33,326 nt of DNA from Synechococcus sp. UW140 (lineage in GTDB: Bacteria; Cyanobacteriota; Cyanobacteriia; PCC-6307; Cyanobiaceae): assembly GCA_945877115.1 (NCBI GenBank), contig CAMCQR010000024.1:1-33326 (forward strand), read 5' to 3'. Each line of letters starts with the position of its first letter. The first letter of the stretch is position 1. Position numbers and translations under genes: made by a program. The notes beneath the pieces are model-generated. The model was given only the letters and a program-made list of their open reading frames with translations. It searched no databases and was not told the DNA's origin. Positions 30,518 to 33,326 of this stretch are shown here, one piece after another.

Positions 30518-30933
30518 TGGGAGTAATGAATTGAGGCGAAAATTAACCCGTAAAGGGTGTTTTACTAAATTTTTCCCATTTTACGTTGCTCTGGTGACTC
30601 TGCCGCACAAAACATCTCCACAGAGCTTGAAGTAGTGGCCTGGACTGGAATGTACCTAAAGTTACAAATCTGCCAGGCTCTGCGCCGGGTCAACGACTGA
30701 GGAAAATCAGGCGGATATAACTGGGTCATGGGCAAGAAAGTTAAAGAACGACATTTATGACCGAAAAAACTTCTCTTAAGGACCCGAACTCGCAAAAACC
30801 CCAAAAATTAGGGGGGTAATCTCGTGATCTTTCCTGACCCGGCTCGTCGGGTTTCCCCCTGGCCCCGCCACCGCCTAGGGCCCCAGCCGCCGGCGCGATG
30901 CGCCAAAGTGGTCGGGCACCGAGGGGCTTCAGC
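30518..30933. other. AT-richer non-coding region ahead of ubiD
   Basis: About 0.4 kb without a convincing gene; open frames here are short, lack start signals and have AT-rich composition. Two weak structures are present. CCCC-(8 nt)-GGGG at 30799-30814 reads on the minus strand as a stem followed by TTTTT. ACCCG-gctcgt-CGGGT at 30837-30852 lies shortly before ubiD. The promoters of the divergent genes on both sides must be here. I found no RNA gene. Confidence 0.5.
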
Positions 30934-32502
30934 ATGTCTGGAGTGATGGCGCAACAGGGCCGCGACCTGAGGGGATTCCTGCAGGTGTTGGAACGGCGCG
31001 GCCAACTACGACGCATTACTGCGCCGGTCGATCCCGACCTTGAACTGGCGGCGATCGCCGACCGGGTGCTGGCCCTGGGGGGCCCGGCCCTGCTGTTTGA
31101 GAATGTCCTTGGCTCGTCCATGCCGGTAGCTGTCAACCTGCTCGGCACCGTGGAGCGGGTGCTGTGGTCGATGGGCATGGAGCGACCGGAGGAACTGGAA
31201 GCCCTCGGCGAGCGCCTGGCCTTGCTCCAGCAACCTCGTCCCCCCAAGGGCCTGGCCGATCTGAAGCGTTATGGAGGCCTGCTCTGGGACCTGGCCCGGG
31301 CCCGGCCGGACCGGGATCTGACCCCCCCTTGCCGCCAGGTTGTGCTGCAGGGCGACCAGGTGAATCTGCACAACCTGCCCCTGCTTAGGCCCTGGCCGGG
31401 TGACGCCGGTGGGGTGATCACCCTGGGCCTGGTGATCACCAAGGATCCCGAAACCGGCACCCCCAATGTGGGTGTCTACCGCCTGCAACGGCAGTCGATC
31501 AACACCATGACGGTGCATTGGCTGAGTGTGCGGGGGGGAGCGCGCCACCTGCGCAAGGCGGCCGCCCTGGGCAAGCCCCTCGAAATCGCCATCGCCCTCG
31601 GGGTCCACCCCCTGTTGCTGATGGCCGCCGCCACGCCGATTCCGGTGCAGTTGAGTGAATGGTTGTTTGCGGGTCTGTATGGGGGCGAGGGGGTACGGCT
31701 GGCTCGCTGCAAAACCCTGGACCTGGAGGTGCCCTCCCACAGCGAATTGGTCCTTGAAGGCACGATCACCCCGGGGGAGGAGTTACCGGATGGTCCTTTC
31801 GGCGACCACATGGGTTTTTATGGCGGTGTTGAGGCCTCCCCCCTGGTGCGGTTCCACTGTGTGACCCACCGCCGCAACCCAGTTCTGCTGACCACCTTCA
31901 GCGGCAGGCCCCCCAAGGAGGAGGCGATGTTGGCCATCGCCCTGAACCGCCTGTATACCCCGATTTTGCGGCAACAGATCCCGGAGATCGTTGATTTCTT
32001 CCTGCCGATGGAGGCCCTCAGCTATAAGTTGGCGATTCTGAGTATTGATAAGGCCTATCCGGGCCAGGCGCGTCGGGCGGCCATGGCGTTCTGGAGTGCT
32101 CTGCCCCAGTTTACGTACACCAAATTTGTGGTGGTGGTGGATCAAACCATCAACATCCGCGATCCCCGCCAGGTGGTCTGGGCCCTCAGTTCCCTGGTCG
32201 ATCCCCAGCGGGACCTGTTCGTGTTGGAGGACACGCCCTTTGACAGCCTGGATTTCGCCAGTGAGCGTCTCGGCCTGGGCGGCCGGCTGGCCATTGATGC
32301 CACCACCAAGGTGGGACCTGAGAAACGGCATGACTGGGGCCAACCCCTGGGCCGTGATGCCGCCATCGAGTCGCGGGTGGATCTGCGCTGGGCGGAACTG
32401 GGTCTGGCCGATCTGGGGGGTAGCGAACCGGATCCGGCCCTGTTCGGATACACCCTGGAGCATGTGCTGGAACGGCTGACCCTGGGGCGCCGGCCGGCCT
32501 GA
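30934..32502 (+). CDS. ubiD: UbiD-family prenylated-FMN-dependent decarboxylase
   Basis: 522 residues. It probably decarboxylates a prenylated 4-hydroxybenzoate in plastoquinone synthesis. Family blocks: NVGVYRLQRQ, PFGDHMGFYGG, RRNPVLLTTFSGRPPKEE and a C-terminal metal-binding region with QTINIRDPRQVVWAL. The ATG at 30934 is preceded by GAGGGG at 7-nt spacing; ATGs at 30898 and 30946 are in frame but less well placed. The prenyl-FMN synthase UbiX is not in the window. It overlaps the Rrf2 gene in TGATG. Confidence 0.93.
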   Translation: MSGVMAQQGRDLRGFLQVLERRGQLRRITAPVDPDLELAAIADRVLALGGPALLFENVLGSSMPVAVNLLGTVERVLWSMGMERPEELEALGERLALLQQPRPPKGLADLKRYGGLLWDLARARPDRDLTPPCRQVVLQGDQVNLHNLPLLRPWPGDAGGVITLGLVITKDPETGTPNVGVYRLQRQSINTMTVHWLSVRGGARHLRKAAALGKPLEIAIALGVHPLLLMAAATPIPVQLSEWLFAGLYGGEGVRLARCKTLDLEVPSHSELVLEGTITPGEELPDGPFGDHMGFYGGVEASPLVRFHCVTHRRNPVLLTTFSGRPPKEEAMLAIALNRLYTPILRQQIPEIVDFFLPMEALSYKLAILSIDKAYPGQARRAAMAFWSALPQFTYTKFVVVVDQTINIRDPRQVVWALSSLVDPQRDLFVLEDTPFDSLDFASERLGLGGRLAIDATTKVGPEKRHDWGQPLGRDAAIESRVDLRWAELGLADLGGSEPDPALFGYTLEHVLERLTLGRRPA

Positions 32503-32984
32503 TGGCCAGCGGCCCCTCCTCCCCCCTACTGGGCCGCCAGGTGGTGCATGCCCTCAAGGCCCTGTTAGAGCTGGCGGAGGATGGCTCCCCCCGTTGGCGA
32601 TCGGTGGCGTCCCTGGCGGGGTCCCAGGCGTTGCCGGCCCCGATGTTGGAGCAATTACTGCTGCGGCTGAGGCGCTCTGGTCTGTTGGAGGCCCGCCGCG
32701 GCAGGGTGGGGGGCTACCGCCTGGCCCGGAGCGCGCCCCTCATTTCCCTGGCCGAAGTGGTGGCGGCGCTGGAGCGGCAGCAAGGGGCCATGAATGGGCG
32801 CGACGAGCCTGCCAGCGCCACCGCCACCTTGACTGCTGCCGATCGGGTGGCCCAGTTGTTGGAGCGACGCCTGAGGGCGGCCCTGGAACGGGAGCTGGGG
32901 CAATGCAGCCTGGCCGATCTTCAGTACGACCTGCGCAGCGCCCAAGCCGTGCTCAGTGACACGGGCGGCATACTGCTGGGTTGA
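32502..32984 (+). CDS. Rrf2-family winged-helix regulator without iron-sulfur cysteines
   Basis: 160 residues. The N-terminal ~90 residues follow the Rrf2 pattern: HALKALLELAE, a recognition segment PAPMLEQLLLRLRRSGLLE, the wing RRGRVGGYRLARSAP and ISLAEVVAALE. The three-cysteine cluster of IscR-type members is missing; the only cysteine is in GQCSLADL near the C-terminus. It therefore probably does not hold an iron-sulfur cluster in the usual way. The ATG overlaps the ubiD stop, so the two are translationally coupled. The regulated genes are unknown. Confidence 0.85.
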   Translation: MASGPSSPLLGRQVVHALKALLELAEDGSPRWRSVASLAGSQALPAPMLEQLLLRLRRSGLLEARRGRVGGYRLARSAPLISLAEVVAALERQQGAMNGRDEPASATATLTAADRVAQLLERRLRAALERELGQCSLADLQYDLRSAQAVLSDTGGILLG

Positions 32985-33037
32985 ACGCAGGGGGGTCGTC
33001 AATGAAATTTGCAAAATTATCAGAAAAGTGAAAATAT

Positions 33038-33066
33038 TTGAATTTTTTCATACTTGCTGCTAATTT
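33038..33066 (+). promoter_or_regulatory. Candidate sigma-70-type promoter for the Nif11-like fragment
   Basis: TTGAAT (33038-33043) and TAATTT (33061-33066) are separated by exactly 17 nt in an AT-rich patch, about 20 nt before the ATG at 33088. Boxes match the consensus at 4 of 6 positions or better and the spacing is ideal. No strong ribosome-binding site follows. Confidence 0.45.
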
Positions 33067-33087
33067 GCTGGGTTGCTATGGGTTTTA

Positions 33088-33243
33088 ATGAAAGACGAAC
33101 TTTTTTCGTTTCTAAACGAGGTTTCGGCAGACGGGGAACTTCAGCAAGCCCTGAGAAGCATGAAATCCGCCCAGGAAATGAGGTGGTCTGGCTTTTCTGG
33201 ACAGTCCCCATCGTTAACCTCTGAGGCGGGGCACCACCCCTGA
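33088..33243 (+). pseudogene. 5' fragment of a Nif11-type leader-peptide gene, cut by an IS
   Basis: A 51-codon open frame whose first ~31 residues begin MKDELFSFLNEVSADGEL and continue QQALRSMKSAQEM. They fit the Nif11 leader family pattern (LxxFLxxVxxDxxLQxxLxxxxSAxE). The usual continuation, an Ala-Lys/Gln-x-x-Gly-[FY] block, is absent. The reading frame instead runs into what looks like insertion-sequence DNA and stops at 33241. Nif11 leaders head precursor peptides such as prochlorosin-type lanthipeptides, or stand alone near nitrogen-fixation genes. The core peptide, if there was one, is not in the window. The family match is by eye over a short length. Confidence 0.55.
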
Positions 33244-33326
33244 AAGGGGGCTCCCACCGATGAGCAAGCGCCGAACCCACAGCCCCGAGTTCAAGGCCAG
33301 AGTCGCCATGGAAGCGATTAGTGGCC
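33184..33326 (+). mobile_element. Left end of an IS3-family insertion sequence (partial)
   Basis: The visible part comprises a ~75-nt leader with G/C runs and the first codons of a transposase OrfA; the rest lies beyond the window. The left boundary is uncertain: loss of Nif11 similarity places it near 33181, and candidate TG-beginning ends are at 33184 (TGGTCTGGC) and 33198 (TGGACAGTCCCC). Confidence 0.65.
33260..33326 (+). CDS. IS3-family transposase OrfA (N-terminus only)
   Basis: The ATG is followed by 21 further codons to the window edge, giving MSKRRTHSPEFKARVAMEAI then SG. This is the characteristic N-terminus of IS3-family OrfA proteins, whose helix-turn-helix would continue past the edge. 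A purine-rich AAAGGGGG lies about 10 nt upstream as ribosome-binding site. Partial by truncation at the window end, not by mutation. Confidence 0.82.
   Translation, partial: MSKRRTHSPEFKARVAMEAISG

Follow-up and report, generated by a model that had tools for sequence, protein, structure and literature searches.

The right end of contig C24 of the freshwater picocyanobacterium Synechococcus sp. UW140 raises two questions: whether a small reading frame there is a Nif11-type gene interrupted by an insertion sequence (IS), and whether such a gene marks a peptide natural-product locus. The window analysed is the entire contig (33,326 nucleotides), one of 185 contigs of a 2.71-Mb genome whose assembly is 95% complete, and it terminates 148 bp into an IS3-family element. 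The interrupted gene begins with an ATG at 33088, and its 5' part (33088..33178, plus strand) spans 30 native codons plus a single base, A, of the next. This codon, number 31 (33178-33180), is completed by TG from the element. The resulting frame (33088..33243, plus strand) encodes 51 residues, 30 native and 21 wholly or partly IS-encoded, and ends at a stop codon within the IS (33241-33243); this hybrid is presumed to be a dead-end product. When residues 1-31 were searched alone, Nif11 (PF07862) was the sole Pfam match, as the original prediction anticipated, but its score of 16.2 bits (E 0.013) did not reach the 23.8-bit cut-off, and NCBIfam, TIGR03798 included, gave no match. With a sub-threshold score and no NCBIfam match, a Nif11 gene is plausible from the letters of the window, short of established.

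Comparison with related genomes identified the gene. A DNA search with rrf2 and the fragment matched the sister genome G001 at 79% identity, from rrf2 through window position 33153 and on into an intact gene. This ortholog (P0001) encodes a 143-aa protein with two Nif11 domains (66.4 bits) and lies between rrf2 and aroA. A second intact ortholog, of 142 aa, was found in identical gene order in another sister genome, G064. The corresponding left neighbours in the window, conserved in position, are an Rrf2-family regulator gene (32502..32984, plus strand; PF02082, 85.5 bits) and, next to it, a ubiD-family decarboxylase gene (30898..32502, plus strand; PF01977, 237 bits).

A search of the genome with the last 177 bases of the window gave matches that start at 33178/33179, on the end of contig C69 (100% identity) and on C26 (95%). 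Because the element sequence recurs on these contigs behind left flanks that differ from one another and from that of C24, position 33179 was assigned as the end of the repeat, which reads TGAGGTGG.... C69 and C24 stop at the identical base of the element. The break of the assembly within the element is attributed to its repetition in the genome. Together with the intact G001 ortholog, the recurrence of this end confirms that a Nif11 gene is interrupted by an IS3-family element.

The left end of the element (33179..33326, plus strand) carries the terminal repeat TGAGGTGGTCTGGCTTTTCTGGACAG and is cut off by the end of the contig. The expected OrfA start (MSKRRTHSPEFKARVAMEAISG...) was located at 33260..33326 on the plus strand, likewise truncated; the full-length OrfA of a relative of the element in G022 matches the N-terminal part of NF033516. 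Matches to the element were present in 26 of 60 related genomes, and the complete G022 copy is 1266 bp long, encodes OrfA and OrfB of IS3 type and is flanked by a 3-bp duplication, CCC. Its OrfB is an IS3-family transposase (NF033516, 259 bits). The terminal inverted repeats are imperfect, with TG...CA ends (TGAGGTGGTCTGGCTTTTCTGGACAG / TGAGGTGGGTGCCTTTTACTGGACAG). IS3-family insertion sequences have two overlapping open reading frames and measure about 1.2-1.5 kb. In its transposase, paired frames, termini, 3-bp target duplication and the length of the G022 relative, the element resembles this family and shows nothing unusual, as far as can be read from the two ends (148 + 321 bp) by which the interrupting copy is known, on either side of a middle part of ~800 bp.

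The other half of the gene was found through G001, whose region downstream of the insertion point matched contig C68 of the UW140 genome. Read from its end, C68 presents the right end of the IS, then AAATAATGGATGCG... with the gene remainder in frame; the full order is IS right end, AAA, gene remainder, a second twin-Nif11 gene and aroA. The IS right end (C68:12515-12835, minus strand) comprises 321 bp and encodes a transposase C-terminus (rve_3, 48 bits; NF033516, 61 bits, as a fragment). Flank comparison revealed a 3-bp target duplication, AAA, with its left copy at 33176..33178, where C24 reads ...CAGGAAA before the IS, and its right copy at C68:12512-12514. By itself, a duplication of three A's carries little weight, at a chance of about 1 in 64 per pairing; when three left and three right IS ends were compared, a 3-bp flank was common to only one of nine pairings, that of C24 with this end of C68. 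At the other end of C68 (C68:1-149; L111), a right end of the same IS family was observed, 93% identical and with a different flank.

When the element was removed and the flanks were joined with a single AAA, an open frame of 142 codons was obtained that aligned without gaps to the G001 gene. This frame is colinear with the G001 and G064 orthologs (142-143 aa), and the join restores the gene order ubiD-rrf2-nif11-aroA, the second copy lying just before aroA. In the joined frame, the first Nif11 repeat has its Gly-Tyr block (SRGYNF), which the original prediction had proposed to look for beyond the IS. The remnant on C68 is a frame of 111 codons with an ATG exactly at the junction; its expression from the element is conceivable. 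Because no contig of the assembly spans the element, we infer the physical join of C24 and C68. The locus offers a clean example of a contig end in a repeat that was resolved by combining gene order with the target duplication and the reading frame.

The claim that the fragment derives from a working gene was borne out by comparison of the orthologs. Nei-Gojobori (NG86) dN/dS ratios were 0.18 between UW140 and G001, 0.12 between UW140 and G064 and 0.10 between G001 and G064, values that are approximate given the high dS. Since the ratios are about 0.1-0.2, purifying selection is indicated for most of the history of the gene. This result is independent of the promoter argument on which the claim had been based, and that argument failed: a consensus scan found no candidate promoter with 17-nt spacing, and the best upstream pair at 16-18 nt scored only 8 of 12 and had no counterpart in the best pair of the orthologs. 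An A/T-rich block upstream of the gene, ATTTGCAAAATTATC (33007..33021, plus strand), is largely conserved in the two orthologs from sister genomes. This block is no sigma-70 pair and was rejected as such a promoter; it is possibly a regulatory site.

The second twin-Nif11 gene is an intact paralogue of 149 aa that directly follows the interrupted gene on C68, before aroA, and shares 53% identity with the G001 protein. In the close relative G036, the second copy (L104:279-728, on G036:C328) has a Gln codon replaced by an in-frame TAA and is therefore also breaking down there; of the first copy, the contig holds the last third only. Since the first copy is broken in UW140 and the second in G036, either copy seems dispensable where the other is retained. 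The description of the locus as decaying is apt to the extent that one copy is broken here and the second is stop-broken in a close relative. A natural-product locus found no support.

Collectively, these data make it very probable that a single IS3-family insertion with an AAA duplication splits a coreless twin-Nif11 gene beside an intact tandem paralogue. An element of ~1.27 kb would have transposed into codon 31 of the small gene between rrf2 and aroA, duplicating three bases, AAA, upon integration. The 142-codon gene would thereby have been cut, so that 30 native residues are followed by 21 IS-derived residues and a stop, and the function of the interrupted copy would have been lost. This loss was probably tolerated, since the intact 149-aa tandem paralogue remains. 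Most likely, the locus reflects an ordinary case of an IS inactivating one of two tandem paralogues.

The nature of the product was examined with the intact proteins. Nif11 (PF07862, cut-off 23.8) scored 60-70 bits in the orthologs, paralogue and joined frame, and 39.4 bits in the C68 remnant. The intact ortholog and paralogue contain two full Nif11 repeats, and they differ from the single-domain family pattern in these twin domains and in a conserved FDxxGWD tail. The tail, ADDxxxVxLFDxxGWD...W.LK, is conserved between the paralogues and with single-Nif11 proteins of congeners; seven of these carry LFDNCGWDHGEIAW, an eighth is more divergent, and the twin-Nif11 protein here carries ILFDALGWDFRSLLW. 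A genus-wide search with alignment A1 also listed the window fragment (E 1.6e-9), a match that was left out as evidence because it is circular, A1 including the joined frame. TIGR03798 (cut-off 32.3) scored 47.9 bits in the ortholog, 57.9 in the paralogue and 55.0 in the joined frame. The best stretch covers positions 4-53 of the 68 of the profile in the ortholog and joined frame, where it ends short of the cleavage motif, and positions 6-64 in the paralogue. No Gly-Gly cleavage site, no Cys residue and no Cys/Ser/Gly-rich or hypervariable core was present in ortholog, paralogue or joined frame.

An AlphaFold model of the twin-Nif11 protein was all-helical, of low confidence (pLDDT 67). A sequence search of the PDB gave a weak match only, to 9zn4, a Nif11 domain protein of solved structure (E 0.006). 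Foldseek likenesses to calmodulin-like helical proteins had E values of 1 or more and were discarded as meaningless. In all likelihood, the product was a small, entirely helical Nif11 protein acting intact and uncleaved. A binding or adaptor role is a guess, given the low confidence of the all-helical model.

In an alternative reading, close to the original prediction, the gene would encode a leader of a ribosomally synthesized and post-translationally modified peptide (RiPP), prochlorosin-like or of another class, and the insertion would signal the decay of a natural-product locus. Like N11P/TIGR03798 RiPP precursors, which include the prochlorosins (Haft 2010, PMC2887384), the twin-Nif11 proteins score above the cut-off of the leader profile, one named for RiPP precursors, and form a small paralogous pair. 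Cores that are conserved instead of variable have been reported for Nif11 precursors of marine Synechococcus (PMC10783134), and an NHLP-type export ABC transporter with a C39 peptidase is encoded on contig C142, unlinked to this locus, so that some peptide export probably takes place in this organism. However, unlike those precursors, the twin-Nif11 proteins lack both the Gly-Gly motif and a Cys/Gly/Ser-rich core, and no modification or export genes were found clustered with them. No modification enzyme was seen among the 17 window frames scanned, the neighbours, ubiD, rrf2 and aroA among them, are housekeeping genes, and a search of the 95% complete assembly gave no LANC_like domain. A RiPP precursor is therefore an unlikely reading, and the features of the twin-Nif11 protein suit a coreless Nif11 protein better than a leader of the RiPP type. 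A match to TIGR03798, a "RiPP precursor" model, should accordingly be treated with caution, as it need not denote a precursor where cleavage site and core are lacking.

The proposed switching of the gene, by an insertion that is polymorphic or reversible in the population, likewise fared poorly. Nothing direct speaks for it, and the assembly alone would be compatible with a mixture; no empty or excised copy of the site was seen in this assembly. IS3 elements transpose mainly by copying themselves, and precise excision is rare, which also counts against switching, and this alternative is considered highly improbable. Lower still is the probability that C24 and C68 represent two separate IS-interrupted places, or the outcome of ectopic recombination between IS copies. 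The number of IS ends in the assembly, no fewer than three of each kind, would allow such an arrangement, as would the lack of a spanning contig, but the 3-bp duplication, restored frame, colinearity with the orthologs and gene order all fit one simple insertion. Plasmid records were searched as well and gave no match.

Twin-Nif11 genes were found in a clade of four genomes, and they occupy the slot between rrf2 and aroA in the three of these in which both flanks are readable; in UW140 the slot corresponds to window positions 32985-33087 and C68. The rrf2-aroA gap could be read from flank to flank in 13 further congeners (L050-L077), where it holds a frame of ~110 aa, similar-looking throughout, that is not twin-Nif11; a profile search of 261 gap frames from other congeners found no twin-Nif11 in the slot. 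One such frame was tested by Pfam and matched DUF2605 (PF10792, 85 bits). DUF2605 adjoins rrf2 in both control congeners searched, and was not found in the four twin-Nif11 genomes, three of which are 73-83% complete. The two families share a genomic slot and small size (DUF2605, ~110 aa), with no profile-detectable similarity between them. It looks as if twin-Nif11 replaced DUF2605 in one clade. We tentatively suggest, as a possibility that is itself rather doubtful, that a coreless, intact-helical Nif11 family with an FDxxGWD tail took over the DUF2605 slot, and perhaps its task, in a small freshwater clade. Coreless Nif11 proteins could help to probe the role of the Nif11 domain before some of its members turned into leaders.

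Several further Nif11-related loci were observed. In G020 and G017 (L091, L096), single-Nif11 genes adjoin a conserved membrane protein and, as judged by eye, a 2OG-Fe(II) oxygenase-like frame. Elsewhere in UW140, the NHLP-type bacteriocin export transporter on C142 (L112) is preceded by an HlyD-like protein. Three Nif11 repeats were seen in one 228-aa frame without an obvious core (L003; C18:18837-19379, minus strand). A single-domain Nif11 peptide ending in the C-terminal sequence IPGEYN (L001; C55:13761-13904, minus strand) resembles a described Nif11 class with a conserved C-terminal GEYH/N (PMC10783134). Finally, a Nif11-cupin fusion protein was identified on contig C37 (L002; C37:22327-22497, minus strand; TIGR03890, 211 bits).
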